37,452 nt of DNA from positions 1 to 37,452 of IMG/VR virus record IMGVR_UViG_3300017773_000041. One strand, 5' to 3'. The stretch comes from a virus. The notes under the pieces are model-generated. The model made no database searches. It was given only the letters and a program-made list of their open reading frames with translations, and was not told the DNA's origin. Positions 2,097 through 27,979 of this stretch are shown piece by piece; within the stretch, counting starts at the first letter, position 1; every line of letters begins with the position of its first letter. The position numbers were made by a program, and so were the translations under genes.

Positions 2097-5000
2097 TTAT
2101 TTTTTTGCTCCTGGTTTTCCTGCGTTAAAATTATTTCTACTAAATTCTAATCTATCAACTAATTTAATACCATTTTCAGTGTGATCAACTGCTACGAATC
2201 CTTCTGCTTTAGTTACACTTAAAGTACCATCACCATTATCAATAAAGTGTTTAGTTGCTACAGCTTTATCATATTTGGTTATAAATATAGCCTTTGCTTC
2301 AGAGAGTAATTTACTTACTTTAAATATATTAAGTATATCTTGTTTTTGAGATTCAAATTCTTTAAGTTTTTCTTCACCAGCTATTTTTTTCTTTTCTTTA
2401 GTTTCTGGTCGTTTAACTTTTGCTATTCCTTTATCAACTGCTTGTTGATACCAGTTTTTAAATCTTTCAAAAGATTTTGAAGGATCATTTAAAAATTCAC
2501 CTTGTTTTATTTCACTATTAATGTAAATATTTAAACTTTTTAAAGGTAAATTTGTATAATCTACATTAATTGAATCCGCTTCATTTATTCTATCTAATAC
2601 AAATTGCTCTTCTTTATCACTTAATAAAATACCTGTGTTATCCTTAAAATAAGCATCATCGAACCAAACACTAGTTGATTCACTTAATCCACTTATATCC
2701 GCTCCAAATGATGCTCCTCCTCCACTTAAATCATTATAAGTTGTATGAAATATAATTCCTATTCTTGCTGCTATTACTTTTTTGCCTAATTCAGAATTTG
2801 CTTCAACTGCATATCTGATTGTATTAGGTCTAAAGGTGTAATGTGGGGTTCCTTCTATATCATTTGTTTCTACTTCATCATTATCAAACATAAAATCACC
2901 TTGTAATATACCTTTTATTCCTAAAGCAGGTAAATATTGTAATGCTAATTTTAATTTTTTAGCTAAACCAGGTGCATGTCCATGATTTTCATCTATATCT
3001 TTAGGAGTATAATTAATTTTAGGGTTTATATTAAATACTGACTTAGTACCTACAAAAAATTGTCCGTTATCTGGATTAATTCCTGTAAATATAGCAGGCG
3101 CACCATCCCATTTTACAGAAACATTTTTAATTGTATTGTCTTGTCCTTTTAAATTTTTAATTAATTCATATAAGAAATTTTTAGCCTGATTAAAACCATC
3201 TTGTCCTTGAGTTAATACTAATTCTTCAAGGTGGGTTAAATGTGTATTTGCTTTTGTTTCTGTTAGTATTTCATTTATTTGTTGTTTCCACCAATTTTTA
3301 GAAAATACGCTTTCTTTTTTCATTCGTTGTGTTTTTTTCTTTGATGCTTCTTTACGTTTTTTAATATACTCAAAAGCAGGTTTTAAACGTTTTTTAACAG
3401 CTGGATCTTTTGCTCTACTTAAAGCTGCTCTAACTCTTTGGTGAATTAAATTTATAATTTGAGACTGACGTTTGTGTGGTTTACTTTTAAATGAAGCTTT
3501 ATTTAAAGTGTCTACTATGTCTTGTCTTGTAGAAAATTTTACTTTAACTGTGTCTGATGGATTTTCATCAGTGTATAATCTACGTCCTGATCCTTTAGGT
3601 TTTTTACCTGTTCCTTTTTTAGGATCTTTTTCTTGTAAATAACCTAATTTTTTAGATTTTTGAACATCCCTAGTAAATACATCACTTGCTTTATATCTTG
3701 TTTGTTGTACTTGATTTGCCTTGTAAGGAGGAAAATTTTCATTTTTAGCCATTTTAATAGGTATTTCTCTTACTTTTGTAGCTCCTGGAACTATTATAAT
3801 GCCTGAATTATTATTAGCTATTATTTCTACTCCATTATCTCCAATTAATTTAAGTTGATCATATGCAAGATTATCCATATCTATCTTATTACTGTTTATA
3901 TCAATAAAAGGTCTATCTTTATAAGGTGAATTTATTTTATAGCCCATTTGTTGGATTGATTCTTTTTTAGCCATTTTAGTAGCAGTAGCTATTTTAACTG
4001 ATTTCCAATTTTTACCATAACGTTTTTTAAATTCTTTATCAGGTAAACTTTGAGCTATTCTTTCTTCTTTGTCTGAAAGATCTCTTTCTAATGATAATTG
4101 TGGATTAGATGTTTGAAAGTTAGATTTTCTCATTATTGTTTTTGCAATTGCTTTATTAGCTTGATTTACAAAAGGTATATTAAGATTAGTTCTACTATCT
4201 GTTGCTACAATTTGTTCATATTGGTTTAAAAATTCAATAAATGATTTTTTATTTTTAGATAAACGTTTAAAAAACCCAATTAATTCAGCATTTGATATTT
4301 CTTTATCATTACGAGGATCATTTACTCTGTCAAAAAAATGATTAGTAAATTCAATATCTACAGGATTTAATTTATTATCTGCATATGTTTCTATAGAATC
4401 TAAATCTGACGCTGACATTTTTTCGTACATTTTTCTTGTAAGTGTGCCTTGTGCTGACTTAGGGACTTTAACATATTGGTTTCCTTTATTTATTTTTTTA
4501 AGATCTTTACTTAAACGTTTCATAGCCTTATTATGTTTCTTTTTTTCAGGCTCTGTCATCATACCCATCATCATTTCTCTTACGGATGCAGGGTCTTCAA
4601 CTTTTAATTTTATGTCTGGATATTTATCTTTTAAACCTGCTACTGCTACTCTGTTTTCCTCTGAATCATCAATAAAATAAATTGTTTTATATCCTTTATT
4701 TATATGTTTTTCAATCCAGTTAGCTTTATCTTGACCCGTTACTTTACCATCTACTTGTAATCCTAAAGGTACAACATAAGCAGCTAATCCTAATTCTTCT
4801 CTCATATATCGAGTAACTGGATGTCCTATAGAACGAGCTGTTAATATGGTTGTTTTTATGTCTGGTCTACTTAATGAATTTTTTAGTTTATTTACAACTT
4901 TACTATTTACAATAGCATCATCTATTTGTTTTTCAAATTCAGAAAAATCGTATTCTATTTCTAAGCTACCTAATCTTGTTTCTAATTCTTTACTTTCTTC

Positions 5001-6275
5001 TGGGAAATTAGCAGCTGGGATTAATATTACTTTATTGTAATCTCCACTTGGACTAGTTATAGTTGTTTTAATATTAGCATTTACTTGGGCTATTGTGTCA
5101 TCAAAATCATAAACATGTAGAACTTTACCAGTTTCAAATTGAGCATCTTCTTTTACTGATTCTTCCCAACTAACAGGAGCTGTTTGTCTATTATGTATTT
5201 GGGTTTTTGTTCTAGGTATATCTTTTTTTCCTCTATATCCAGCTTTATATTCACTACTTCTCATATAATCTAAAACTTTATCTTCTGGATTATAAAAATC
5301 TTCATTTAACACAAGGGATGTAAATGTTGCGAATAAATTTAAGTTTTTTCCAGCTGAGGCAGGATCTGGTTCTATAAAAAATTTTCTTCCTACAACATTA
5401 TTTCTATCTTCTAATCCATTAATTTTTATAGTTTTATTTTTAGAAGATTTTAAATCATTATCATCTGTTGAGATTAAAACTCCCTCAAAAATATCTCCCG
5501 TAACATCTTTAAGAAAATCTGGAATATTTTTAGCATTATCAGGGTTTGCAAAAGGTTTATTTTTACCACTTGTTTTTGGGTCTTCTTTTTCTGTGTCTTT
5601 ATCTACTATTTTTATATCTGAAGCTTGAACATAATCTCCTTTACGTTTTACGTCTTTTAATTTTAAAAATTTTTCGCTTTTTGATAATGCATTTTCTCTT
5701 TTATATTTAATAGTAATATATTTTGAATCTGTGATATTTTCATTTACATTAGCTAAATATCCTGCTGTTACTATACTCCAAGCTTGTTCTTTTTGTTCGT
5801 CTGATAAATGTTCAGGTAAAGAATATTGAAATAAAGCTTTATCATTCATTTTAATAAAACCCCTCATTTCTGTTCCTGATACGCCTCCTGCTTGTGGGGG
5901 CACTAATGTAGTTTCAAAGGTTATACCTCTTGGTTCAGCAAATTTACCTATATTTGCATAACGTTTATCACTAATGTCTTTTTCACCCATTCCTAAAAAT
6001 ACTGTGGATCCTTCAGGTGCTTCTTGTTCAATAAAATCATAAACATCTCTTACTGGAGATACTCCTGCTGGTCTAACTTCTAATCCTGAATCATTTTGTG
6101 TGTAAAGTTTCCATAATTGAAGAGACATTTCTTGTGTAATACCATCTCTTTCTTTTGGACCTACAAAAATTATAGTAGTGTCTGCATCTGTATTAGCTGA
6201 TAACCATTTTGCCATATTATAATGGCCTGCATGTGGTGGTTTAAACCCACCAGGTAAAAGTGCGATTTTTGACAT
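2097..6275 (-). CDS. Nucleotidyltransferase-HAD phosphatase-ligase-like fusion protein
   Basis: This 1,392-residue protein joins at least three enzyme-like domains. Residues 1-170 are a cytidylyltransferase-like nucleotidyltransferase with GGFKPPHAGH (HxGH at 15-18) and a late VSGTEMR (132-138), as in NMN or pantetheine-phosphate adenylyltransferases. Residues 383-560 are a HAD phosphatase: DFDDT (D390 nucleophile, D392 acid/base), LTAR (T479), K517 and FIDDS (D536, D537). Residues 640-775 hold conserved phage segments (FTNHFFDRVNDPRND; FKKRYGKNWKSVKIATATKM). A basic segment at 890-990 contains KVKFSTRQDIVDTLNKASF. Residues about 1010-1392 resemble DUF6267-type ligase-like proteins, with KWDG (K1055), LQGDFMF (1124-1130), EGFVAV (1358-1363) and KLVDRLEF (1371-1378), which match motifs I, III, IV and V of covalent nucleotidyltransferases. 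Domain calls rest on motifs. The substrate and any joint function (nucleic-acid end repair or virion role) are inferred. It starts 10 bases after a conserved 17-base motif. Confidence 0.85.
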   Translation of the reverse strand: MSKIALLPGGFKPPHAGHYNMAKWLSANTDADTTIIFVGPKERDGITQEMSLQLWKLYTQNDSGLEVRPAGVSPVRDVYDFIEQEAPEGSTVFLGMGEKDISDKRYANIGKFAEPRGITFETTLVPPQAGGVSGTEMRGFIKMNDKALFQYSLPEHLSDEQKEQAWSIVTAGYLANVNENITDSKYITIKYKRENALSKSEKFLKLKDVKRKGDYVQASDIKIVDKDTEKEDPKTSGKNKPFANPDNAKNIPDFLKDVTGDIFEGVLISTDDNDLKSSKNKTIKINGLEDRNNVVGRKFFIEPDPASAGKNLNLFATFTSLVLNEDFYNPEDKVLDYMRSSEYKAGYRGKKDIPRTKTQIHNRQTAPVSWEESVKEDAQFETGKVLHVYDFDDTIAQVNANIKTTITSPSGDYNKVILIPAANFPEESKELETRLGSLEIEYDFSEFEKQIDDAIVNSKVVNKLKNSLSRPDIKTTILTARSIGHPVTRYMREELGLAAYVVPLGLQVDGKVTGQDKANWIEKHINKGYKTIYFIDDSEENRVAVAGLKDKYPDIKLKVEDPASVREMMMGMMTEPEKKKHNKAMKRLSKDLKKINKGNQYVKVPKSAQGTLTRKMYEKMSASDLDSIETYADNKLNPVDIEFTNHFFDRVNDPRNDKEISNAELIGFFKRLSKNKKSFIEFLNQYEQIVATDSRTNLNIPFVNQANKAIAKTIMRKSNFQTSNPQLSLERDLSDKEERIAQSLPDKEFKKRYGKNWKSVKIATATKMAKKESIQQMGYKINSPYKDRPFIDINSNKIDMDNLAYDQLKLIGDNGVEIIANNNSGIIIVPGATKVREIPIKMAKNENFPPYKANQVQQTRYKASDVFTRDVQKSKKLGYLQEKDPKKGTGKKPKGSGRRLYTDENPSDTVKVKFSTRQDIVDTLNKASFKSKPHKRQSQIINLIHQRVRAALSRAKDPAVKKRLKPAFEYIKKRKEASKKKTQRMKKESVFSKNWWKQQINEILTETKANTHLTHLEELVLTQGQDGFNQAKNFLYELIKNLKGQDNTIKNVSVKWDGAPAIFTGINPDNGQFFVGTKSVFNINPKINYTPKDIDENHGHAPGLAKKLKLALQYLPALGIKGILQGDFMFDNDEVETNDIEGTPHYTFRPNTIRYAVEANSELGKKVIAARIGIIFHTTYNDLSGGGASFGADISGLSESTSVWFDDAYFKDNTGILLSDKEEQFVLDRINEADSINVDYTNLPLKSLNIYINSEIKQGEFLNDPSKSFERFKNWYQQAVDKGIAKVKRPETKEKKKIAGEEKLKEFESQKQDILNIFKVSKLLSEAKAIFITKYDKAVATKHFIDNGDGTLSVTKAEGFVAVDHTENGIKLVDRLEFSRNNFNAGKPGAKK

Positions 6276-6306: not shown

Positions 6307-7230
6307 TTACGACAAGGCTAGCCTCTTTTTCATTAATGTAGAGGTAGTAAGTTTTATTGCGTTGTGAAGCAATTTTGTAAAGTTTTTAAAACCAAGTTCA
6401 GATGGATCTTTATCACCCATTTCTATAAGATAGACTTTTTTCCCATAAGACATAAAAGTTTCAGCATGGTTAAAAGCATCCTTTAAAGCATCTTCATCTA
6501 AAGCAAGATATATTTTTTTTACGTTAGATTTAATAATTTTTTTCATTAAAGTTGTAGATAATTTTTTTCCAAATAAAGGAATCGCATTACGTTTTATAGC
6601 CATAGCATCGAACGCACCTTCACATAAAATCACGGGTAAATCCCAGTTTATATACATTTCAAACCCAATTATGTCCTTGGTACTGGAAGCCAACTTATGC
6701 TTAATATACGCGTTTTTATCAAACGAACGACCTACATAATAATTTAAGAAACCATCTTTATCATATGAAGGTATTACAACCATATTTCTTAAAGGACCTT
6801 CCTCACAATAATGTAAATCATATTTTACTACGTCTTGTTGAGTAATTCCTCTTTGGTTTAAATAATGTAATGCATGTCTTGATAAAACTGCAGAACTAGA
6901 CATTATGGGGGTTACTCCTTGGGGAAATTGTAAAGTATTAGTGTCAACTTTTTGTTTAATTTGTTTTTTAAAATTGTATTGTTGATCTATTTCTTTTAAA
7001 GCTCCAAATGCAGCTCCAGGTGCGTTGGATTTTTTAAGTAATTGAAAGGCTCTATGACCTTTATAACCACAAACCCAACATTGAAATTTTTGTGATAATA
7101 AATTAAACGTTAATTTTTTCTTATGGTGGTTACAAGAAGGACAAGTAAAAACAGCTTCGTCTCCTCCACGAGCAGATTTACTTCTACCTAAAATTGATTC
7201 TAATAATTTTTTTAATAGATCTTCTTTCAT
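6307..7230 (-). CDS. DNA primase, DnaG/T4 gp61 type
   Basis: This 307-residue protein has the layout of a small phage primase, which makes RNA primers for lagging-strand synthesis with the replicative helicase. An N-terminal zinc-binding domain has C30-x2-C33 and C51-x2-C54 (TCPSC; CWVCG). The Toprim domain follows, with EGAFDAM (E204, D208), ALDED (D245, D247) and GDKDPSELG (D273, D275), the acidic metal-binding residues of the family. At 307 residues it is close to T4 gp61 (about 340) and shorter than bacterial DnaG, with no C-terminal helicase-binding domain evident. Its ATG overlaps the stop of the upstream gene (ATGA), so translation is probably coupled. A replication gene is unusual amid tail genes. 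I am confident of the family; a helicase partner is not in the window. Confidence 0.9.
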   Translation of the reverse strand: MKEDLLKKLLESILGRSKSARGGDEAVFTCPSCNHHKKKLTFNLLSQKFQCWVCGYKGHRAFQLLKKSNAPGAAFGALKEIDQQYNFKKQIKQKVDTNTLQFPQGVTPIMSSSAVLSRHALHYLNQRGITQQDVVKYDLHYCEEGPLRNMVVIPSYDKDGFLNYYVGRSFDKNAYIKHKLASSTKDIIGFEMYINWDLPVILCEGAFDAMAIKRNAIPLFGKKLSTTLMKKIIKSNVKKIYLALDEDALKDAFNHAETFMSYGKKVYLIEMGDKDPSELGFKNFTKLLHNAIKLTTSTLMKKRLALS

Positions 7231-7856
7231 TCCCAGGTAACATCTTCAAATATAGGAGATTTCATTTCTGTTTCTATTTTTTCTATTTTTTTAAAAAAAT
7301 TAGGTAAATCCTCATCACTTATTTTTTTATATTCTATAAACATTTTAACTCTTATATCTCCCCTTTGAACCCTAAATAAGTCTTCTTCATTTGTTTTTTC
7401 TTTTTTATCACCAAAATAAATATAAGTAAAGCCCCCATATTCTTTAAGTTTAAAATTTATGTCATTAAAAATAAATCCATTTTGAATAAGTTCATTATAT
7501 AAAATTGTTTGACCTTGAGAAAGGGGTTTATATACTATACAAGTATATTGAGGGTATTGTTTGAAAAAATTAAAAGAAATATCTCTTAATTTTGCTAAAA
7601 ATTCTAATGTTTCTGTTCTGTTGTTTTTTAGTTTATTATTAAATCTTATAGATTCATTATTATTCATTTCAAAATTTCCCCATATATAATTTTTATTTTC
7701 TGCTCTTATAGGTCCAAAATTTCCTATTACTCCTATATCATCATAAAGTCCTTCAGTTTCTAAAAATGAAATTCCCAATTTAGTACTATCATGTAAATCA
7801 AATTCACACGCAAATCTTCTTTTATTTTCTATTCTACTTATTTCTTTTATTTCCAT
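7227..7856 (-). CDS. Hypothetical phage protein in primase cassette
   Basis: This is a 209-residue protein that I do not recognise. It is rich in Asn, Lys, Glu and Phe. The first half looks like beta strands (RRFACEFDLHDSTKLGISFL, residues 14-33), followed by a helix with LEFLAKLRDISFNFFKQY (about 84-101), then a mixed segment with an acidic/basic C-terminal end. The middle (YNELIQNGFIFND, about 119-131) resembles the end of an acetyltransferase-like fold in style, but there is no convincing acetyl-CoA motif, so I do not call it. It overlaps the upstream GIY-YIG-like gene by 10 bases and the downstream primase by 4, so the three are tightly coupled. A link to DNA metabolism is inferred from position only. 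Confidence 0.75.
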   Translation of the reverse strand: MEIKEISRIENKRRFACEFDLHDSTKLGISFLETEGLYDDIGVIGNFGPIRAENKNYIWGNFEMNNNESIRFNNKLKNNRTETLEFLAKLRDISFNFFKQYPQYTCIVYKPLSQGQTILYNELIQNGFIFNDINFKLKEYGGFTYIYFGDKKEKTNEEDLFRVQRGDIRVKMFIEYKKISDEDLPNFFKKIEKIETEMKSPIFEDVTWE

Positions 7857-8281
7857 GTTTTAAAATCTTTATCATAAAACTTACCTAATATATTATCATT
7901 AAGAAATTTAGGTGTTTCTAAAACTTCTAATATAAATTGATATTTACATTCTAAATATGTAAGTTGTTTTTTATTAAAAGCCACTTGTAAGATGTTTCTT
8001 TCTAGATCTTCTTTATTTGCGTCTTTTATAAAACTATGAGAACCATAGTAAGTTTTCCAATCGCTTTCCTTTTGTACCTGTTTGTACATGGGAGGACGGC
8101 CTTTTCCTTCCCAAAGTGCTTTTTCTTTTTTACCTAATTTTTTCTTTAAATTATAAATAAAAGATTTTTTACCAATGTACTTCTTTCCTGTTGGGACATG
8201 AGTTGTTTGGTAAATAAAACCGAATGCTCCTTCTGGGAGGTCAGTTATTTCATTAATTTGTTTTCCTATATAATACCACAT
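7847..8281 (-). CDS. GIY-YIG-like endonuclease
   Basis: This is a 144-residue protein. The N-terminal half has GFIY (21-24) and, ten residues on, KYIGKK (34-39), which match the paired GIY and YIG strands of the nuclease superfamily. After a basic loop come WKTYYGSHSF (about 75-84) and a helix with YLECKYQF (109-116), where E111 sits where the family's catalytic Glu is expected. R95 and the lysines around it may bind DNA. Such proteins occur in phages as homing or free-standing endonucleases (T4 Seg family) and as repair-type nucleases. Here it has no extra DNA-binding domain and is in a coupled cassette ahead of the primase, so it could be homing or a working replication/repair nuclease. The motifs are direct reading; the activity is inferred. 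The first position of GIY is retained but the I is F. Confidence 0.65.
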   Translation of the reverse strand: MWYYIGKQINEITDLPEGAFGFIYQTTHVPTGKKYIGKKSFIYNLKKKLGKKEKALWEGKGRPPMYKQVQKESDWKTYYGSHSFIKDANKEDLERNILQVAFNKKQLTYLECKYQFILEVLETPKFLNDNILGKFYDKDFKTWK

Positions 8282-16003: not shown

Positions 16004-19000
16004 TTAACTACTATAACTACTTCCTCCACTTCCCCCACTAGTTGTTGTTGTTGATGATTTTTGAACGCTAACAGTTTGAGTACCTTTTATTGATACACCA
16101 AGTCCTGATCCTTTTGAGGGATTAACTGGATTTATTCCTACCGTAGGATTTATACCTGGGTTTGTAGGATCATTACCAAAATTAAATTGTGGTGGTTTAG
16201 ATACATAATAGTATTCTTTACTAACTATACAATCTACATAATTACCATATAATGGATCAAAATTGTCATATAAAGTAATATAAGGATTACATTCATCTGA
16301 AGTATATTTGCTTTGACTCATGTATAAATTATCACTTGCTGTTAGAGCTCCCATCCAAGGGAAATAATTTTCATTTACTTTATCTGATATATTAATACAT
16401 GCTTCGTAGTGTTTAACTTCTCCTTCTAAATCTAAATAAGGTAAAAGATGAGCTTCTTTTTCTAATCTTTCAAATGTTGGTATTTGTCTTGCAAATTTTT
16501 GTCTTTCTAAATAATGTGGTTCAATTAATAAACCAGTTTTTAAATTAGCTTTTGCTGGAACAAATTGTTCTACCATTTTAAATAAAGTATGATCTATATA
16601 TTGAATTAATTTTATATAATCAAAGAAATTTTGTCTATAGCTATTTAAATATTTTTTAAAGTATTTTAACTTTAGTTCTTCTAAATCTGGGTATTCTGCT
16701 AAACTTTGGTGTGTTGGATCTCCTATATAATCATCCATTCTAAATGCTCCTAAAGTATAAACAATATCTTCATTTATTTCTGCTTGTGGTGAGAAAAATA
16801 CTCCTAAATCATTATAATCTAAAGGTTGTCTGTCTAATGTAGATGTTTCTGTTTTTATATCAAAAGATAATATACTTCTATCTATAGATCCCGAATCTAT
16901 TCTGACTTTTTCACTTGTAGTAGAAATACCTACAGTGTCTGGTGTTAAATGTCTATGAGTTTCATATACTTCACTAAATGATTGACTTGTAATAGAACTA
17001 GATATACTTGAAGATTCATATAAACTAAATGATGGGTGTGGATTGAAATTTTGAATTATTCCTAACCCATTATTATTATAAGAAGCAGAATCTACTTTAT
17101 TATTACTTCCTAAAGGTAATCTTAAATGAACATTTTCCCAAGATGAACTAACAGTATTACCTGCATATTGAAAAGGATCTAAAGCATGTTTAGTAAGAGT
17201 ATCATGTGTTAAGAAATCTTTAACATGGTATTTAATTTCTTGTAAAGATCCTGAGTATGTAAAACTATTTACACTACCACTTGTATTACTATTAGTAGGA
17301 ACCCCACAAAAATATGCTGTTGATGCTGGAAGTGTATTATTAGCTAAATTATAAGCGGTATCTCCAAAAGATGCTGCTCTTTCATATTCACTAAAAGTAG
17401 CTGAAGCTGTTAAATGGGTAACATGACCTAAGAAATTAGATTGATATGCTCCAAAATATACTTCACTATTACTTCCTGATTCTCCTTTTGTTCCTATAAA
17501 TATATTCCAAAAGGCTCCATTATAAACAGGGAATATATCTGTACTTCCTACTACTGATCCATTTTTATATAAATCTAATGAACCAAAGTTTCTAAAATCA
17601 TCCGAAGAAGAAACATCACTACCTGTGTATGGTCTTAATATTAAGTGAGGAGTTGTTTGTGGTTGTGATTCATTATATAAACTAAATAAATGTGAAGCTG
17701 TTGGTATTGTTATAACAGGATCACAACATGCTTCTAAAGATGAATATTCTGGTTTGTCTAATCTGTGGGGTTTAATTCTAAATTCTACCATTTTAGCAGA
17801 ACTTGAAGGAATTATATCGAAAGTACTAGCGGAAACAAAATTAATAATTGTTTCATAAGTATCTGCTGAACATTCACATCTACTACTAGATACTTCTCCT
17901 GCTACTAAACATCCTACTTCTATAGACGATGATTCAGGACAACAAATGCATGATTCAAATTCTATGTCTCCATCTAATGATTCTCCCCCCGTTGTTTCAG
18001 GAATACAAACACAAGCTCCTCCGTCTATTTGTCCATATAATGGTATATTTCCTGCTGTACTTTGTGTTTCTTCCGTTACTATAGGATCTCCAGGTATATC
18101 TTCACAATTAGCTGCTTGGTAATTAACTATAATATTAGCGCTATAAGTTATTTCTAAAGTAGAATTAAAATAATTTAATATATCTGTTATGTCATCTTGA
18201 TAAGTAAATATATCTACTTGTTGTTGTGTTGATCCTGTTGTTGTTTCATTACAAGGACAAGTTTCTACTTTTGTTTTAATTGAATATCTAACTATTGTTC
18301 CCTCATATCTTGGATGGTTACTTTCTAAAGTATTAATTGTATTTAATACTTGGGCTAAAGTCATTGTATTATCAAACTGATTTGCATCGCCTTCAGCATT
18401 ACAAGCTGCATTTAAATGACCTAGGAAACCATCCCAATCTTGAGCTGTTGGTGATGCTTGATTAGGAGTTCCATTTTGGGGTTGAGTCATTATAGTTCCA
18501 AAATACCCATTTTGAGCAAACTGGGTTGTTCCTGTGTCTAAAAAAGATTGACAAACTAATTGGAATTCTTTAATATATCTTTGTGCATTTGTAGCACATG
18601 AATGTCCTGCAATAGGTGATGTTGTATCTTCAAAGAAATAATTTGCTGCTGTCTGACTAGGAGCATTATCAATTAACCATTGAGTATGAGAAGCAACTGT
18701 TCCTGCAGGAGAGGTAGTAGATTCAAATATTTCATAAAACATTGATTGTGTTTCATTTGTATTGCCTGTTATATTTGACCACGTTCCTGAATTACAAGGT
18801 TCAGTATAATTTTGAACTGTTGTACCTGGGATAGTTGTGAAACTTAAACTGTTTAAAGTATCAATAAATGTATGCCAATTAGTATAAGTACCTCCTGCAC
18901 TTGAGAAGGTTAAAGAAGGTAATGATGTGAAAGTAAAATCAGTTACAAAACAATATACTCCTCCTCCTACTGGTAAATTTGTACCTGTACAATTATTATA

Positions 19001-22000
19001 AGGTGCTAGTGTTTCATCTAAAGTATCATTTGTAAAATAATATCCATTTAAATTTTGTCCATGTCCATTATCTATTAACCAATTTAATTGTTGTGTTGCG
19101 TTTCCTATTACATTTGATCCAGCAGCACTATTATTAAATATTTGAGATTGTGCGTCAAATATATTAATAGGTGTACCAGGAGTTGTTGTGGTTATTACTC
19201 CAGGTGTGCTTAATGTTGCTACTGAGCTTGATAATTGATTCCATGTAGTATATGTACTTATGCTAGCTCCATTATTATTTAAAAAATCAATACCTGTTAA
19301 TCCATCTTCTTGGATTTTTTGATTTAAAAAAGTACTCCAACTTCCATAAAAAGTAGAATCGGATGAATATTGATTAGTTGTTGATGAAGGATCTATTAAA
19401 GCATTTTGATAAAATCCTTCAACTGTATATAAACCATATTGGTTTATTTCTGTTGAAGTAGAACCTGTACATAATATATTTACTTCTACTTCTGTTATTG
19501 TTTCTGTTATGCATAAATCTGAAGTAGATACAAATTCATCAAGATCTACAGCTAATTGTGTTGAAGACATATTTGGGAAAGATACATTAATTCCCCAACC
19601 ATATTTATCTAATTCCCCAAATCCTTGATCAAAATAAGGGTTTGTAGTTTTTAATGCGTTGTAAGTAACTGTCCCACCCCATGGAGCTACAAGTCCTGCA
19701 TAAATACCACCATTAAGTGTATCTACAGTTCCAGGAACACCAAAACTCATAATTGTAGATGGGGGATTAGCTAATCTTCCATCATTATTATCTCCACTAG
19801 TTATTGATGCTAGTGCTGATAATATTGTTTGTGAATATAAAGAAGTAAAATTCTTAGGGGCACTTTCATTAGGAGTTGGATACATGAAACATGCTACATT
19901 TCCTGTTGTATAATTGTTGTAAAGAGTTGTATATTCAGTCCAATCATCTTGGAAAGAATCAAAACTTGTACTTTTAGGTTCATCATCACCAAATAGAGGA
20001 TCCAAATAATCAATAGTATTAACATTAGGATTAGTAGTTAAATTTCCTATAGGTCCCTCTGTCCAATCATTAACATATCTATTATCAGATTCATCTATAA
20101 AACAAATAGCTAAAACGTCTCCTGTTGGAGGTCCTAATGTTGATAAAGTATTAGAAGATGCCCATGTACCACTATATACATTTACAGTTGGATCTGCCTC
20201 CATTAAAGCTAATGTTGGTTCGATTTTATAATGGGCATTACTAAGATTTCCACCACCATTATAATACTTAGTAGTATCTCCAAAACCTTCTAACATTCCA
20301 GTTCCCCATTTTAACCATCTTTCTCTTGTTGCAAATATATGATAAACAGTTTTATTATATCCTTGGTTTTGTTGTAAATCTAAAACCCAATCATTTACAG
20401 CATTAAATGCTGTTACTTTAGCAGCATTCCCCATTGAAGTATTATCATAAAACACATATAAATCTGCATTAACAGAACAGTCTTCTTCTTCCGTTGTTAT
20501 TTCTTGGAATGATTGATCTACTAATTGAAATTTTAAAGTATTTAAATTTGATGCTGCAAAACCATTTGCAGAATCAGAAATAAATTGCATGTATTCATTA
20601 TAATTTGAAAATACTCCTTGTGGTTGAGGGATGGTAAATTCACCTGTAGTTGAATCAGGAAAATATTGAATTCCCGTAGTTGTTGATATTAAAGGATCTG
20701 TAAAGTTTAAAATTCCATTAGTTACTTCTACTATTATAGAATTAGAAGTATAATCTATTGAAGTTACAGTTAAAGTACACCCAGAATTATTTGATTGTAT
20801 AAGAGAATCTCCTACAATAAAAGGTTCATTACCTTGGTCAAAACTAGATCCAGTTATAGATATAATTGTATTATTATTAAGTACTAAATTATTAGGACAA
20901 ACATCTGCACATATACATTCATCTACTGCTATAGGACCTTCTATTTGAGATTCTAATCTTGTATCTCCTAAAGTTAAAGCATATCCTAAATTTTGACCTT
21001 CTGTTATATAATCTGTGTATTTTGAAAAAGAAGTTGAACTAATTGAAGGATTCATAAAAAACTCATCAACAGTAAATAACATGTTTCCATTTTCATCTAA
21101 ACATATATTTGGATCAGTATATTGTGTTACTGAATAATCTGCACATAAAGTTTCACTTAAAACTTTTCCTAAAGCATTTTCAAATTCAATACCAGTAAAT
21201 GCATTTTCTTGGACTGCTTCAGAAGTTACAACCCACCCATAATTTTGTAAACCACCATACCCATATTGTGGATCATATCCTGTAGGAGGTGAGAAACTTG
21301 TTTCATTTTGCCAACTTGAAATAGCATAAGGGTTTGTGTTAGACCCACCACTACTATCTAATGCATTAAGATATATAGCATTATTAGCAGGTGGAGTAGT
21401 TGATAAGTACTCATGGCCTGTTTCTAACATACCTGGGTTAGCTGCACTACCCGTTAGTATAGAACTCCATACATGTAAAGGAAAAGCTAATTGTGTAGTT
21501 TGAAAAACAGTTGTGCCATCTACTCCTAAATATCTATTAGATGAGGGATCTGAAAGGCTTAAACCTTCAGGAGCAGAAGGATACATAAAATTAATTAAAT
21601 CTCCTTGATTTTCATATTCATTTGCTGTTCTGTCTATGTTTTCAAAATAGGTTTTAATAAATAATTCATAATCTACTCTCCAATCTTTTTGACCTTGACT
21701 AGTACCATCTTGTATTTTAGCTTGTGTTAAACCTACATTACCAAATGTTGGATTTGTTGAAGTAGATGATTGGTGGTATTGTCTTTTTCCACTATTAGAT
21801 GTTTCTGAAGATTCATCATAAAAATTAAATACTAAAGCTTTATCTGTTGCATTTTGTAATGATGGAGCAGGTCCTCTCCAAGTCCATGACGTTCCTCCAA
21901 GTGATCCTGCTGAATTAGGTACTTCATCATCATACATTCCATTACCATCATTAATAACTGATTTTACAGGAACTACTTGTCCCTGAATTACTATTGTTCC

Positions 22001-25000
22001 AGTTTCAACAAATTGATATATTTCTTTAGATCTAGTATTACCTGTTCCATTTTTGACAAGTTTATGCCATATATGACTCCCCCCAAAGGCTTTTTCACCT
22101 CCTGTAATGTTACTTTGATTAGAATTCCAATAACCTGATACACCTGCTTGTTTTGATATATTATCATTATCACTATGAATAGTAGTAATAGAACCAAAAC
22201 CACCATTTTGTAAGTGATCTCCAATATTTGTAAAAGGTAATCTAGCACAATCTAACCATCTTTCATAAGAATTAACCATATGATAAACAGTACCTGTAAA
22301 ATTAGCTCCTTGTTCTGCTACCCAATTTTCCACAGTTTCTACTACATTTTGGAATACTGTTGCTGTCATTGAAGTACCATCATAAAAACAGTATATTGTT
22401 GCATCTAAAGGGCAAGTTTCTTGGAATGTTTGGGTTAAACTATCTGGGTCAACAGGAAATTTAAATCCATCTACTGCTATATTTTGTATATTATTTGTTT
22501 GTTCAGAATAATATTCTAAGAAATCAACCATACCTGTATTTCCGGATCCAGGAGTAGGAAAACTACCATCAGATGTTAATGGATTTGTTATTAAAGTTTT
22601 ATGTTGGCAAGATCCTTCAAAAGATCCTGTAATTAATGCTGCTGTTAAATTTGAAAAATTAGTAGGAGGTGTTTCAATACCATGCCCATCTACATTTAAT
22701 TGATTTACAAATGTTTGATAATTAGTATATAAAACAGTGTCTAAAGGTAATATAGATTGGTCTTTTCTAAAACCAACAACTCTTCTAATAGGTAAACCAT
22801 TAGATCCTATACATTGATCTTCTACAAAAGTTCCCCAAGGTAAAGGTTCGTCTGATTCAAAATAGTAATCATCTATATTTTGACCATAAAAACCATTATC
22901 AAAATCAGTAAAATAATCTACAAAATCTGCTGATGTTTCAAATGATCCATTTCCTTCTGGATTAATAACCATTCCATCACAAGAGCCTGTTGTAGTTGTT
23001 ATTTCTGTTTTTTCACAAAGTCCAGTACACTCATTAAATAAATAACCTTCTGGACATTCATTTGTTTGTGTATTAAATTCTCCTCCCCCACATGTTGTGC
23101 TTGTAATAGAATTAATAGTAATTGTTACGTCAGCTTGGTCAAATTGTTCTGTTCCTAGAGTGCTATAAAAATGCACTCCTCCTTGATCTACTACACCTGG
23201 TGTATGTAAGTCAGTTGCTGTAAAAGTAACATTAAATGTATCATTGTTGCAATTAGTTCCTCCATTAAACATCTCCTCAATATAACAGCTACCTAGAGTA
23301 GTAGTAGTTCCTCCCCAATTGTTATTTGGATTTCTATCAAAAAGTAAAAGTCCTTTACTAGAATTTGAACCATCATTACTAATTGTATAATTTATAGTAT
23401 ATTCACATCCAATAACTAAATTATGAAAAGAATTTATCCATCTTCTCCAATTAGGATAAGCAGGATCGTTAGTGTTTGTACTAGTTGGATAATTATTTTT
23501 AATGGTCATTTGGTTTGGACCATCTACTTGCCAATAATCTGTGTCTCCACTACCTATAGTAAAATCAACATAAGGTGTAAGTTGATTAGGACCTGGATCA
23601 CTAGTAAATATGATATTGTTTTTATAAGCGTCTTCTAAATCAGTGTATGTTATGCCATTTAATGTAATACCATTATTATCTATGTTTTGAAAATCAGCAT
23701 CTGAATTAAAAGTACCTATTGGGAAAGGTCCTACTATATCACATCCAAAGGATGCTACATTTTCATCATTTTTTCCTTCTAAAACTATTGTGTTATCTCC
23801 TGCTATTAAATTTACTTTATAAACCCACCAATAATTAAAATTACTAGTTGAACTTGTATCTTTTTCAATTAACATTTCACCATTTACAGCAAATCTTATT
23901 CTATTATCTCCTGCTAGACCTATTAAATATTCTCCATCAGCAGGTACATTTATACATTTTGAAAATCCTATCCATTGGTTTGTAGGATTCATTAAAGTGT
24001 TATTTCCTAACCATGGATTAGTTCCATCCCAAACTCCTATATTATTTAACCTTCCATCATTTTGACTAGTACCCCCAAAATAAGTGTTTGACTGATCAAT
24101 ATTATATGTAGTAGTTGTTGTAGTATCTGAATAAAATTTTACTCCAAACTTTCCATAATTAGAATTTTGTGCTCCTTGTCCTAAAGGTATACTAGAATTA
24201 ACTGTTGGTAATTGAGTTAAAACATTTGATGTAGTAATAGTACCTGTTGTAAATTCATTACACCCACAAGATGAAGATGCAGGAAAATGAGTTATAATAT
24301 CTGATGCTTTTAATTCAGACCATTTTGTATCTACATTTATTCCTGGTATGTTTGAATTTATTATACCATCAGCATTTAACGCGTTAATAAACGTGGTATA
24401 ATTGGTATAACACGCGTCACTTGTGCTTGACACATCACTACAATTAGAACTACAATAATTTAAAATTTCGCTTGGATCTAAATAACCTTGTTTATTTGAT
24501 GCCTGAATAGTTGTACTAGTTACAAAAATTTGGTTATTAGGATGTGAAAAAACATAATCACTATTAGTAGGACCATAGTTGTAGGCATTACCATCGGAAG
24601 TTACGTAAGCACTTCCATCATAAATGTGTGTGCCTGCTGCATAAGGAATTGCTTGGGCTAAATAATTATCATAAGTAGAATCTCCAGTAGATCCTTGAAC
24701 TATATAATCTGTAAATTGTGTAGTAGTAACACTAAAAGATAAATTAGCACCATCTACATAGAAGTCTAAAACTGCACTACAAGAATTATTAGATGTTGTT
24801 ACTATTTCTCCTCCTGTTGAGTCTGTACCCCCTATAAGCCCACTTGCTGTTATAGACATAAATGCGGCATCTCCCCCCATATTAAGGGCAGAACCTTGTA
24901 TAGGATTGTTAGTATTAGATCCTGTTACTACTGTTGTTATTTCTAATGCATATCCATCTCTTTGAGGGACTGAGTCTAAATTTATAGCATTAAAATTGGG

Positions 25001-27979
25001 GTTGGCATTTATTGCATTTGTAAGATCTTGACCTATTGAATTTACTGAACCTCCTCCTGTTAAAGTAAAAGTATGAGCAGTACCATCTGCTGATGTTAAT
25101 ATTACTGTTTCTCCATTATATAAACTATTATTTCCCCCAACTGTATTAGGAATAGTTATTGTACCTACTGCTGTTGTTCCTGGAGAAACTGTTGTTGGAG
25201 TTACTATTGTTTTTATATTTACACAATCATCTGCTTTAAAACATTCTATAACAAATAAACCATAATCATTTATTCCTTTACATTGAAATTCCCCTAAATA
25301 TAAAGGAATAGCTGACGGAGTTAGTGATTCAAAACTATATAAAGAGATATCTATATCAGTATATCCATTTGTTACGTCTGTAACAAAATCCATAAATTCT
25401 GCTTCATCCTGAAATAATCCATTATTTATTAGATTACCTGATCCATCTGCTGCTATTCCGTTTTCTATTAATGTTTTACTTGAACATGTATTAATACCAG
25501 GTATAACTGTTGTAATTGATGTTGAATTGTTTATTCCTCCTCCTGCATTAAAATCTACTTTTGTTAAAAATTCAACTTCAGGAAATTGTTGTGGGTTACC
25601 ACAAGCTGGAGTTAATGTATCTTCAAATAATGTACCTTTTATTTCTGTATTACCATCTATACCTTGTAGATGTTGGGTTATCATTATTTCAATATCTAAA
25701 TTGTATTTTTCATGAGCAGGATCATATAAATCTTCTCTTACAAAAACAGAAGCTGAAAATAATGTATGTGCGTCTATAGCTCCTGCTAGACTTTGAGCTG
25801 TTTCTAAACCACTTTCTCCATGTAATATAAAATCATAATTAGAAGTAAAAGTATGAACAGATAAATCTGTGGCTGTTAATTCTACTGTTTTAGGAAAAGG
25901 TGCATTAAATAAATCTTTTACAGCTCCTATAGAAAATATTATTTTACCCTCTGATCTATTTGGTTTACTTTCTACTGTTCCTGTGAATAAAGAAGAAGAA
26001 GATGCCCATGGTGCTTTTATGAAATATCCTTCTAAATCTGAACTTCCCGCTAGGGCTCTTGAGAATTTTTCATAATTAAATGTTTTATAAGTAGTTTCAT
26101 CTGTTGTAGGTCCTCCATATTCTTTTATATTTAATATGGTTTCAGGAACCCCATAACAATTCATAAGAGCTTTTATTCCTCTTTCTGTTCCTTTTGTTTT
26201 TAAAAGATAAGGTAAATTATGATATAATCTTTTCCAAACTTCTTTTGTAATATCTCCTTTAGGCATTGAACTACCTCCATTATCACATGTTACTAAAGAA
26301 GAAGTTATCATAGTTTGTCCTTCAGGGGCTTGATATGTCCCAAAAGAACCAGCCTTATTTGCAGAAGTTCCTATTATATATTCAAATAATTCTTCATTTT
26401 CAAATTGATCAAAAGCTTTTATTCCTAAACTGCTTAAAGCAGTAAATACTAAATCTTTTGAAATACCTTTTTTAAGAGAACTATTAGCATTTCTAATTTC
26501 TGTAATGTGATCTATATATAACCATATTTGGTCAAAATAATGACCAACCATATTTGTAAAGGTTACATAATTTTCATTTTCTTCTCTTTCAGCAATATGT
26601 TCAGGTATTGTTCTAATTAAACTATGTTTATTAGCTCCATCAAATCTAGAAGCAGATAATATTTGTCCTCCATAATCTATATTTAATTCATTTGTACTTC
26701 CAAACCATTCAACTGCTTCTGAGGAAGTAGTAGGTCTTAAATTATAAGGTTTAAGAAATACTTCACAGTCAGATAATCCTACTTGAAGCCAATAAGAATC
26801 TGGTTGTAAAGTAGAACCTGTTACTTGTAGAGTTCCTATACCAAAATCAGGTACTTTAGGCCATGCATATGGATGAAATTCATAATATAAAAATCTTTCA
26901 TAATTATCAAAATTACTTTTTATTTTTGATATTTTAGATTCAATTAAATTTTTATTACCTGTAACTGTAGCAGAACCTGATATACTACCTTGGATTGTAT
27001 TTATTTCATCTATTTGTCTTTGGTATAATTCTAATAGTTCTAACTTATATTTAAAGTTTTTTAATCTTTCTTCAGCACTACCAAAATGTGTAAAATTTTC
27101 AAAATGGAATCCTGTTTCTAAAGATCCTGTAGATGTATTTGTATAATCTATAGATAATTCTATACTCCCACTTAAATGGTTTAATACTGTGTATAAAGAA
27201 GATGAATTTGTATTAGAAACAAAATCATTAAAATTTTTATATTTAGAAGGTATAGAATCATTTAAACGTGTATCTATTCTAAAATTAGGTCCTTTTATAT
27301 CAATACCAAACTCTGGTAAATCAGGTTCCCCTAAATCTATAGAAAATTCTATTGGTTCTACTATATCTTCTACTATTCTAAACTTTTCACCTACTTCTAA
27401 ATCTAAAGGTAAAGGTTCATATAATTTAATACCTATTTCTCCCTCTTGGTATATAATATTTGTTGCTAAAACATTATTATTTTCTCCAAAATTTAAAGTA
27501 AAATCTCTAAAAAAATTAGTTGATGCTAATCCTCTTGTAAAATCACCAATATGTTTTTCTATATTAGCATTACCTATTTGGTCTGATATAAATTCACATT
27601 TTAATTCTAATTTAGAAGGAGATAGTTCTTTTATTATAAATACTTTATTTAAAGTATCTATTATTTTTGCTCTTTGTAATCTATAAACAACTATATATTG
27701 ACCTGTTGTGTAACCTAAGTCTCCTACTTTTTTATAAGGATCTACAAATATTGTATTAGTTAAAGTAGAAGCATCGCTTCCATCATCTTCTATATTTTCA
27801 GGAACAGTATATTCTAAATAATTTTCTATAGAAGTTATATGACGACCCCCCATATCAAACATATGGAATTCAACATAATCATTTTCTCTTCCAAATTTTC
27901 TACCTACATTAAGAGGATTTAAAGATTCTGCATCTATTTGAGATATTTTTGGAATTATATTTTTATTATCTATACTCAT
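16004..27979 (-). CDS. Giant baseplate/tail fibre protein with modular insert
   Basis: This 3,991-residue protein takes up a third of the window. Residues 1-655 and about 3,375-3,990 look like the two halves of a conserved marine-phage baseplate or fibre protein: VWKRLYHNLPYLLKTKGTER (581-600) and GVPETILNIKEYGGP (610-624) in the first, a LamG-like region with FTYSGSLQEIKYHVKDF (about 3,573-3,589) and then helices in the second. Its place after gp25 and gp6 would suit a gp7-like wedge protein. Between these halves lie about 2,700 residues of repeated modules: two I recognise as phage repeat-like (about 690-790, 920-1,055), a PA14-like domain (1,338-1,425), six Cys-ended 40-residue modules, two vWA-like domains (1,857-2,285; 2,502-2,823) and Cys-rich stretches. 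It ends in a Ser/Gly tail. The parts suggest host binding at the tail tip. The insert boundary and gp7 link are inferred. Confidence 0.85.
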   Translation of the reverse strand: MSIDNKNIIPKISQIDAESLNPLNVGRKFGRENDYVEFHMFDMGGRHITSIENYLEYTVPENIEDDGSDASTLTNTIFVDPYKKVGDLGYTTGQYIVVYRLQRAKIIDTLNKVFIIKELSPSKLELKCEFISDQIGNANIEKHIGDFTRGLASTNFFRDFTLNFGENNNVLATNIIYQEGEIGIKLYEPLPLDLEVGEKFRIVEDIVEPIEFSIDLGEPDLPEFGIDIKGPNFRIDTRLNDSIPSKYKNFNDFVSNTNSSSLYTVLNHLSGSIELSIDYTNTSTGSLETGFHFENFTHFGSAEERLKNFKYKLELLELYQRQIDEINTIQGSISGSATVTGNKNLIESKISKIKSNFDNYERFLYYEFHPYAWPKVPDFGIGTLQVTGSTLQPDSYWLQVGLSDCEVFLKPYNLRPTTSSEAVEWFGSTNELNIDYGGQILSASRFDGANKHSLIRTIPEHIAEREENENYVTFTNMVGHYFDQIWLYIDHITEIRNANSSLKKGISKDLVFTALSSLGIKAFDQFENEELFEYIIGTSANKAGSFGTYQAPEGQTMITSSLVTCDNGGSSMPKGDITKEVWKRLYHNLPYLLKTKGTERGIKALMNCYGVPETILNIKEYGGPTTDETTYKTFNYEKFSRALAGSSDLEGYFIKAPWASSSSLFTGTVESKPNRSEGKIIFSIGAVKDLFNAPFPKTVELTATDLSVHTFTSNYDFILHGESGLETAQSLAGAIDAHTLFSASVFVREDLYDPAHEKYNLDIEIMITQHLQGIDGNTEIKGTLFEDTLTPACGNPQQFPEVEFLTKVDFNAGGGINNSTSITTVIPGINTCSSKTLIENGIAADGSGNLINNGLFQDEAEFMDFVTDVTNGYTDIDISLYSFESLTPSAIPLYLGEFQCKGINDYGLFVIECFKADDCVNIKTIVTPTTVSPGTTAVGTITIPNTVGGNNSLYNGETVILTSADGTAHTFTLTGGGSVNSIGQDLTNAINANPNFNAINLDSVPQRDGYALEITTVVTGSNTNNPIQGSALNMGGDAAFMSITASGLIGGTDSTGGEIVTTSNNSCSAVLDFYVDGANLSFSVTTTQFTDYIVQGSTGDSTYDNYLAQAIPYAAGTHIYDGSAYVTSDGNAYNYGPTNSDYVFSHPNNQIFVTSTTIQASNKQGYLDPSEILNYCSSNCSDVSSTSDACYTNYTTFINALNADGIINSNIPGINVDTKWSELKASDIITHFPASSSCGCNEFTTGTITTSNVLTQLPTVNSSIPLGQGAQNSNYGKFGVKFYSDTTTTTTYNIDQSNTYFGGTSQNDGRLNNIGVWDGTNPWLGNNTLMNPTNQWIGFSKCINVPADGEYLIGLAGDNRIRFAVNGEMLIEKDTSSTSNFNYWWVYKVNLIAGDNTIVLEGKNDENVASFGCDIVGPFPIGTFNSDADFQNIDNNGITLNGITYTDLEDAYKNNIIFTSDPGPNQLTPYVDFTIGSGDTDYWQVDGPNQMTIKNNYPTSTNTNDPAYPNWRRWINSFHNLVIGCEYTINYTISNDGSNSSKGLLLFDRNPNNNWGGTTTTLGSCYIEEMFNGGTNCNNDTFNVTFTATDLHTPGVVDQGGVHFYSTLGTEQFDQADVTITINSITSTTCGGGEFNTQTNECPEGYLFNECTGLCEKTEITTTTGSCDGMVINPEGNGSFETSADFVDYFTDFDNGFYGQNIDDYYFESDEPLPWGTFVEDQCIGSNGLPIRRVVGFRKDQSILPLDTVLYTNYQTFVNQLNVDGHGIETPPTNFSNLTAALITGSFEGSCQHKTLITNPLTSDGSFPTPGSGNTGMVDFLEYYSEQTNNIQNIAVDGFKFPVDPDSLTQTFQETCPLDATIYCFYDGTSMTATVFQNVVETVENWVAEQGANFTGTVYHMVNSYERWLDCARLPFTNIGDHLQNGGFGSITTIHSDNDNISKQAGVSGYWNSNQSNITGGEKAFGGSHIWHKLVKNGTGNTRSKEIYQFVETGTIVIQGQVVPVKSVINDGNGMYDDEVPNSAGSLGGTSWTWRGPAPSLQNATDKALVFNFYDESSETSNSGKRQYHQSSTSTNPTFGNVGLTQAKIQDGTSQGQKDWRVDYELFIKTYFENIDRTANEYENQGDLINFMYPSAPEGLSLSDPSSNRYLGVDGTTVFQTTQLAFPLHVWSSILTGSAANPGMLETGHEYLSTTPPANNAIYLNALDSSGGSNTNPYAISSWQNETSFSPPTGYDPQYGYGGLQNYGWVVTSEAVQENAFTGIEFENALGKVLSETLCADYSVTQYTDPNICLDENGNMLFTVDEFFMNPSISSTSFSKYTDYITEGQNLGYALTLGDTRLESQIEGPIAVDECICADVCPNNLVLNNNTIISITGSSFDQGNEPFIVGDSLIQSNNSGCTLTVTSIDYTSNSIIVEVTNGILNFTDPLISTTTGIQYFPDSTTGEFTIPQPQGVFSNYNEYMQFISDSANGFAASNLNTLKFQLVDQSFQEITTEEEDCSVNADLYVFYDNTSMGNAAKVTAFNAVNDWVLDLQQNQGYNKTVYHIFATRERWLKWGTGMLEGFGDTTKYYNGGGNLSNAHYKIEPTLALMEADPTVNVYSGTWASSNTLSTLGPPTGDVLAICFIDESDNRYVNDWTEGPIGNLTTNPNVNTIDYLDPLFGDDEPKSTSFDSFQDDWTEYTTLYNNYTTGNVACFMYPTPNESAPKNFTSLYSQTILSALASITSGDNNDGRLANPPSTIMSFGVPGTVDTLNGGIYAGLVAPWGGTVTYNALKTTNPYFDQGFGELDKYGWGINVSFPNMSSTQLAVDLDEFVSTSDLCITETITEVEVNILCTGSTSTEINQYGLYTVEGFYQNALIDPSSTTNQYSSDSTFYGSWSTFLNQKIQEDGLTGIDFLNNNGASISTYTTWNQLSSSVATLSTPGVITTTTPGTPINIFDAQSQIFNNSAAGSNVIGNATQQLNWLIDNGHGQNLNGYYFTNDTLDETLAPYNNCTGTNLPVGGGVYCFVTDFTFTSLPSLTFSSAGGTYTNWHTFIDTLNSLSFTTIPGTTVQNYTEPCNSGTWSNITGNTNETQSMFYEIFESTTSPAGTVASHTQWLIDNAPSQTAANYFFEDTTSPIAGHSCATNAQRYIKEFQLVCQSFLDTGTTQFAQNGYFGTIMTQPQNGTPNQASPTAQDWDGFLGHLNAACNAEGDANQFDNTMTLAQVLNTINTLESNHPRYEGTIVRYSIKTKVETCPCNETTTGSTQQQVDIFTYQDDITDILNYFNSTLEITYSANIIVNYQAANCEDIPGDPIVTEETQSTAGNIPLYGQIDGGACVCIPETTGGESLDGDIEFESCICCPESSSIEVGCLVAGEVSSSRCECSADTYETIINFVSASTFDIIPSSSAKMVEFRIKPHRLDKPEYSSLEACCDPVITIPTASHLFSLYNESQPQTTPHLILRPYTGSDVSSSDDFRNFGSLDLYKNGSVVGSTDIFPVYNGAFWNIFIGTKGESGSNSEVYFGAYQSNFLGHVTHLTASATFSEYERAASFGDTAYNLANNTLPASTAYFCGVPTNSNTSGSVNSFTYSGSLQEIKYHVKDFLTHDTLTKHALDPFQYAGNTVSSSWENVHLRLPLGSNNKVDSASYNNNGLGIIQNFNPHPSFSLYESSSISSSITSQSFSEVYETHRHLTPDTVGISTTSEKVRIDSGSIDRSILSFDIKTETSTLDRQPLDYNDLGVFFSPQAEINEDIVYTLGAFRMDDYIGDPTHQSLAEYPDLEELKLKYFKKYLNSYRQNFFDYIKLIQYIDHTLFKMVEQFVPAKANLKTGLLIEPHYLERQKFARQIPTFERLEKEAHLLPYLDLEGEVKHYEACINISDKVNENYFPWMGALTASDNLYMSQSKYTSDECNPYITLYDNFDPLYGNYVDCIVSKEYYYVSKPPQFNFGNDPTNPGINPTVGINPVNPSKGSGLGVSIKGTQTVSVQKSSTTTTSGGSGGSSYSS
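19511..20476 (-). repeat. vWA-like domain, copy 2
   Basis: Residues 2,502-2,823. It shares with copy 1 the strand YVFYDNTSM (copy 1: YCFYDGTSM), TVYHIFATRERWL (copy 1: TVYHMVNSYERWL), an FxDES strand (ICFIDESD; copy 1: FNFYDESS), an F-M-Y-P turn, and a final G-W strand before a Cys. The metal site of a vWA domain would be D-x-S-x-S; here it is D-[GN]-T-S-M, so the last position is changed. Confidence 0.55.
21125..22411 (-). repeat. vWA-like domain, copy 1
   Basis: Residues 1,857-2,285. It shares five ordered motifs with copy 2 and is about 107 residues longer, mainly in the loop between residues 1,925 and 2,045, which holds an extra IVIQGQVVPVKSVI segment. Both copies directly follow a Cys-ended 40-residue module. 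A vWA fold is a proposal from the strand-DxTS pattern, not a profile match. Confidence 0.55.
23705..23968 (-). other. PA14-like carbohydrate-binding domain within the giant protein
   Basis: Residues 1,338-1,425 read as a beta sandwich: C-x-x-V-P-A-D-G-E-Y-L-I-G then GDNRIRFAVNGEML, a W-W pair, NLIAGDNTIVLEGKNDE and SFGCDIVGPF. The order of DGxYxIG, GDNxxRFxVNG and AGxNTIxxExxN is typical of PA14-like and related ligand-binding modules. Ligand unknown. Confidence 0.5.

Follow-up and report, generated by a model that had tools for sequence, protein, structure and literature searches.

The IMG/VR virus record IMGVR_UViG_3300017773_000041 (here the window, meaning the whole stretch of 37,452 nucleotides that was analysed) carries a complete open reading frame (ORF) in which an HxGH nucleotidyltransferase (NT) domain, a phosphatase domain of the HAD superfamily, a variable middle region and a C-terminal DUF6267 domain follow one another in a single chain (Table 1). 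DUF6267 is a Pfam family of unknown function, its PHROG match, phrog_455, is likewise of unknown function, and no paper on DUF6267 by name was found in the literature searched. What is new here is the proposal that DUF6267 most likely has the nucleotidyltransferase fold of ligases and capping enzymes.

Table 1. Features of the fusion gene, its surroundings in the window and selected loci of relatives (L numbers).
Feature	Residues	Coordinates	Strand	Evidence or remark
Complete ORF, 1392 aa, NT-HAD-middle-DUF6267 fusion		2097..6275	minus	Start ATG 6275, stop 2097
HxGH nucleotidyltransferase domain	1-170	5766..6275	minus	Profile to solved adenylyltransferases, Pfam
HAGH motif	15-18	6222..6233	minus	G17/H18 conservation
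VSGTEMR motif	132-138	5862..5882	minus	S133 56/60, R138 59/60
HAD phosphatase domain, optional module	383-560	4596..5129	minus	hhalign vs T4 PseT family
HAD motif I DFDDT	390-394	5094..5108	minus	D390, D392, T394 invariant
HAD motif IV FIDDS	534-538	4662..4676	minus	D536, D537 invariant
Variable middle region	576-1005	3261..4550	minus	phrog_23027 match aa 620-726
DUF6267 domain, covalent nucleotidyltransferase (ligase)-like	1010-1387	2115..3248	minus	Pfam E=8e-97
Motif I KWDG, predicted nucleotide-accepting Lys1055	1055-1058	3102..3113	minus	K, D, G 101/101
Motif III-like QGD	1125-1127	2895..2903	minus	101/101
Motif IIIa-like HTTY	1177-1180	2736..2747	minus	H, T 101/101; Y 100/101
Motif IV EGFVAV	1358-1363	2187..2204	minus	E, G 101/101
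Motif V-like KLVDRLEF	1371-1378	2142..2165	minus	K1371 101/101, R1375 100/101
DnaG-type DNA primase gene		6307..7230	minus	Directly upstream of fusion; phrog_47 E=1e-44, Toprim
SegE-type GIY-YIG homing endonuclease gene		7847-8281		Upstream of primase
Single 3,991-aa ORF among tail genes		16004-27979		Weak PA14 match only
ALT domain example		L072 7624-8676		KxDG...EG...K family in DUF6267 slot
Inserted-domain fusion chains		L078 1099-4938, L067 2944-6981, L072 6001-8679		Insertions between NT and C-terminal end
Variable gene upstream of DUF6267		L081 4953-6011, L082 4836-5921		About ten further loci

A preliminary description of this gene had listed signature motifs for three enzymatic domains, and every one lies at the residue given: H15-A-G-H18 and V132SGTEMR138 in the NT domain; D390FDDT394, T479, K517 and F534IDDS538 in the HAD domain; and K1055WDG, E1358GFVAV and K1371LVDRLEF in the C-terminal domain. 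It had also placed the domains in one 1,392-residue chain in the order NT, HAD, ligase-like, and so they are. The order NT-HAD-DUF6267 recurs in 13 complete homologous ORFs on other contigs, so the fusion did not arise in assembly. Purifying selection acts on the frame, with a ratio of nonsynonymous to synonymous substitution rates (dN/dS) of about 0.13-0.6, varying by domain and pair, for the pairs in which it was computable. A Pfam scan of the chain reported only DUF6267 and CTP_transf_like, and the PADLOC defence-system models gave no match. One relative, L001, covers the entire chain, with a best segment that is 94% identical. Residues 998-1384 of L001 and the DUF6267 domain of the window are encoded by nearly identical DNA (proportion of synonymous differences, pS, 0.000), whereas the NT domain and middle region have diverged (pS 0.17-0.27), a contrast that suggests recent recombination at domain borders.

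In a set of 101 DUF6267 sequences with identity down to 30%, residues K1055, D1057, G1058, Q1125, G1126, D1127, H1177, T1178, E1358, G1359 and K1371 are invariant, and they run in the order of ligase motifs I, III, IIIa, IV and V. A compact subfamily of about 300 residues lacks most of the helical insert of the long form, and in it the K, D, G, E, G and K are retained in all 68 sequences. Two sequence features of the covalent nucleotidyltransferase superfamily are present, a KxDG motif I with its Lys and, in the expected order, motifs III, IV and V with their conserved acidic and Lys residues. The arrangement is like that of T4 RNA ligases 1 (RnlA) and 2 (RnlB), which have a KxDG motif I or its equivalent, an EGYV motif IV and a motif V Lys. 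DUF6267 differs from both in its HxGH NT partner, whether fused or only linked, and, in its long form, in the helical insert that separates motif IIIa from motif IV. The best hhalign segments between DUF6267 and the Rnl1, Rnl2, Rnl2-like and DNA ligase families bring motif I or motif IV into register; in the best segment with T4 Rnl1, motif IV falls on the EGYVAV of Rnl1. In these profile alignments it is the motif register alone that appears telling.

AlphaFold2 (AF2) models were obtained for the long DUF6267 of the window and for a compact one, with predicted local distance difference test (pLDDT) values of 88.6 and 92.9, respectively. When the compact model was compared with the PDB by Foldseek, the best 20 matches were all DNA or RNA ligases, tRNA ligases or capping enzymes (best E=0.016, prob 0.60), RNA and DNA ligases standing above the capping enzymes and being more numerous. 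The match list of the long model is more diffuse, for which the helical insert is the probable cause; its top 14 include one capping enzyme, two ligases of RNA or tRNA and one NAD+ ligase. Against a viral library, the first match of the long model outside its own family is an RNA ligase (E=8e-4, prob 0.94). RNA ligases are among the nearest fold matches of the AF2 models. For the compact form, the modelled evidence lies in the uniformity of the PDB match list, the individual matches being non-significant.

The slot that DUF6267 occupies can be filled by another domain. Sixteen NT-first relatives (14 complete ORFs, three nearly identical) lack DUF6267 and hold at the C-terminal end a domain of about 350 residues, here called ALT, with the motifs VKIDGVNSSIR, FNMEYVSG, NHEGVVIRD and PFKITGK. 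In addition to the tabulated example, ALT is found at L011, L046, L055, L056, L058, L059, L066, L067, L074, L078 and L080. It gave no convincing match in Pfam, PHROGs, PDB chains or phage records. Aligned with T4 Rnl1, ALT fits best at motif III; aligned with DUF6267, it fits best at motif I and at an HxxH ahead of it, so ALT may be related to DUF6267, very distantly, and not form a family of independent origin. The HxxH lies about 40 residues ahead of motif I and reads HLTHLE (residues 1012-1017) in the window and GHMAHP in ALT. A regular expression for the motif order matches 161/177 DUF6267 ORFs, 15/17 ALT ORFs and 0/720 other ORFs, and 1-3 of 10,000 shuffled sequences; it was composed after both groups had been viewed, so that the background count is the sole independent figure. 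The ligase-like assignment of DUF6267 is supported by its motifs, its modelled fold and the substitute in the same slot.

The NT domain belongs to the HxGH nucleotidyltransferases, as it has the (H/T)xGH motif, an SGTxxR-type motif and profile matches to solved members. The Pfam match to CTP_transf_like (aa 7-97, E=5e-4) falls just short of the curated cut-off; a profile of 60 NT sequences matches the solved phosphopantetheine adenylyltransferase (PPAT) 3nd5 (E=4e-8) and the archaeal NMN adenylyltransferase (NMNAT) 1f9a (E=7e-6). The HxGH signature had been described as intact. G17 and H18 are indeed invariant (60/60), but position 15 is H or T, so that H15 is not. The domain shares its two motifs and its profile matches to solved structures with CoaD, NadM and NadD, and differs from them in that the match is only a distant one, at the profile level. 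With regard to NMN specificity, PPAT and NMNAT both match at that same level.

The HAD domain has the DxDxT, T/S, K and DD motifs of its superfamily together with a profile match, and D390, D392, T394, T479, K517, D536 and D537 are present in 27/27 sequences. The proposed likeness to the phosphatase of T4 Pnkp (PseT) was borne out by hhalign (prob 86.7%, E=4.4e-6; all unrelated controls <2%), and the two share the HAD catalytic residues. Unlike PseT, the chain of the window has no identified kinase domain, and its HAD is an optional module. Pfam did not find the HAD in the window chain and a sequence search of the PDB gave no match to it, although the HAD region of one relative matches PF11019, DUF2608 (E=2e-4). 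The residues on which the preliminary description rested its case, K1055, D390 and H18, are kept in 101/101, 27/27 and 60/60 homologues; judged from the alignments, catalytic-residue conservation across all three domains exceeds chance.

Among complete ORFs the architectures are NT-HAD-DUF6267 (13), NT-DUF6267 (11), NT-HAD-ALT (8), NT-ALT (6) and DUF6267-NT (4), and in many cases the domains are separate genes. NT and DUF6267 are thus fused in either order. At loci fetched by DUF6267 alone, NT is found in 92/195 and HAD in 13/195, and 776 kb of other phage DNA contains neither. In cyanophages, T4-GC_71 (DUF6267, phrog_455) is followed by T4-GC_190 ("cytidyltransferase", the NT), the two adjacent genes mostly overlapping end to start; S-PM2 has the same two domains as a DUF6267-NT fusion. 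The window differs from these in its NT-HAD-middle-DUF6267 fusion behind a primase. The constant unit is NT plus a ligase-like domain, and the HAD is one optional insert, since the middle region of relatives takes other domains elsewhere. This region is a hotspot of domain insertion, with DUF192, plastocyanin/cupredoxin and GNAT-like domains.

The preliminary description had looked to the tail genes as informative neighbours. This did not hold; instead, the primase lies directly upstream of the NT-first fusion gene in 42/42 cases of the window's lineage, which are relatives and not independent events, and in other lineages the DUF6267 gene is downstream of gp43, uvsX and gp41, in the replisome cluster. 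DUF6267 is near-universal in cyanomyoviruses: its records comprise 369 Synechococcus-named and 61 Cyanophage-named entries, as compared with 376 and 61 for gp43, the two counts having been made at different E-value limits. Hundreds of sequenced marine phages have it as a core gene, to which no function had been assigned. A 2010 review (PMC2984593) noted that cyanomyoviruses are without the T4 gp30 DNA ligase and left open an unrecognised distant homologue. A T4 gp30 search returned 2271 records, with Synechococcus and Cyanophage outside the ten commonest names, and in named complete DUF6267 phages the PF01068 ligase was found in 1/12 (DLP6), PF09414 in 0/12 and, among six tested, PF01653 in 0/6. 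The occurrence of gp30 and DUF6267 is thus largely complementary. The two are alike in replication-gene context and, probably, in superfamily; unlike gp30, which has an OB-fold after motif V, DUF6267 has none recognisable, and its profile comparison with the tested DNA ligase family was not significant. For the ligase activity that cyanomyoviruses are missing, the DUF6267 gene in the cluster of gp43, uvsX and gp41 is a candidate, and the question of the review now has a specific candidate with a specific lysine.

We propose that DUF6267 is most likely a divergent new family of covalent (lysyl-NMP) nucleotidyltransferases, with the fold that DNA/RNA ligases and capping enzymes share. That it has a ligase-superfamily fold we consider likely; that the chain joins nucleic acids is probable. 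For the chain as a whole, we lean with moderate confidence toward a replication-linked enzyme for end-healing and sealing of nucleic acids in T4-related marine phages. In such a scheme, Lys1055 would accept a nucleotide, most likely AMP, and DUF6267 would hand it to a 5′-phosphate end, which would then be joined. The optional HAD would strip end phosphates, and the HxGH NT, the constant partner, would probably make or regenerate the nucleotide donor or prepare the substrate. The identity of the nucleotide as AMP, the joining itself, the preference for DNA over RNA as substrate, and what NT and HAD do are inferred only. If true, a single chain that combines NT, phosphatase and ligase would seal nucleic acids by a new design and might serve as a tool for enzymology. 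It is tempting to go further and picture DUF6267 as the replicative ligase of cyanomyoviruses with NAD+ as AMP donor, the HxGH domain acting as an NMN adenylyltransferase that regenerates NAD+ on site from released NMN in a self-recycling, primase-coupled system, but we regard this as very doubtful. Packaging of the chain in virions, raised in the preliminary description, is unsupported.

Several observations weigh against the sealing proposal, as follows. Known ligases have a KxK spacing in motif V, where DUF6267 has K-x-x-x-R, and the last residue of its motif III is D. The DUF6267 model stops just past motif V with no recognisable OB-fold domain following, and the Pfam scan of the window chain gave no match to the ATP-dependent DNA ligase family (PF01068). 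There is no significant sequence similarity to RnlA or RnlB (hhalign prob about 2% or lower for Rnl1/Rnl2), no Pfam RNA_ligase match in the window chain and no relative of the long or compact form in the PDB by sequence. The hhalign scores against the Rnl1, Rnl2, Rnl2-like and DNA ligase families are not significant, and for compact DUF6267 one unrelated control equals the ligase scores. In the Foldseek comparisons, neither the long nor the compact form has a PDB match at E<1e-3. Two DUF6267 phages also carry a normal DNA ligase (PF01068), so that DUF6267 is not always the sole ligase; the notion that it replaces gp30 everywhere was rejected on this ground. A host ligase may suffice for cyanomyoviruses (PMC2984593). 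The HAD is missing from many relatives. End-healing and sealing, as first suggested, remains the best guess, with the emphasis shifted from the HAD to the constant pair of NT and ligase-like domain, often separate neighbours.

The same fold and phosphatase evidence would also fit RNA repair, in which DUF6267, as an RNA ligase, and the HAD, as a 3′-phosphatase, reseal tRNAs cut by host defence nucleases in the manner of T4 PseT and Rnl1. Among viral proteins outside the family, an RNA ligase comes closest in fold, RNA ligases are frequent among the PDB matches, motifs IV and V are most like those of T4 Rnl1, the HAD is similar to PseT, and jumbo phages have RNA ligases with HAD phosphatases (PMC7824862). 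However, the gene adjoins primase and replisome genes and is nearly universal in cyanomyoviruses, whereas repair systems are patchy; moreover, the HAD is mostly absent and the chain has no identified kinase domain. We consider RNA repair unlikely and, from gene context, moderately favour a role in DNA replication over it. More unlikely again is a transfer without ligation, in which NT and DUF6267 would attach a nucleotide or cofactor cap to RNA, DNA or protein. Capping enzymes share the superfamily and appear among the fold matches, the HxGH NT is the constant partner and motif V is unlike that of ligases, but RNA and DNA ligases rank higher in the fold list and fill more of it than capping enzymes do, and neither an RNA triphosphatase nor a methyltransferase was seen as a partner. 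Finally, a loose polyvalent-type chain of cargo domains without a joint reaction, its fusions being neutral joins of neighbouring genes, would suit the swapping of DUF192, cupredoxin, GNAT and HAD in the middle region and the existence of the same domains as separate genes, but is quite improbable given that the linkage of NT and ligase-like domain persists whether fused, in both orders, or separate and that another KxDG domain takes the place of DUF6267 in the ligase slot.

Different loci have different genes directly upstream of DUF6267. One family in this position carries TPKTD...SLKxG, which resembles the PD-(D/E)XK nuclease motif, and further loci have differing SLKxG patterns. A single conserved nuclease family at this position was rejected, and the nuclease-like gene is kept out of our proposal, because just 11/98 slots share one family. 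The PHROG of the SegE-type gene upstream of the primase is labelled "NAD synthetase", a label that looks wrong. The 3,991-residue ORF among the tail genes probably encodes a giant tail fibre or adhesin.

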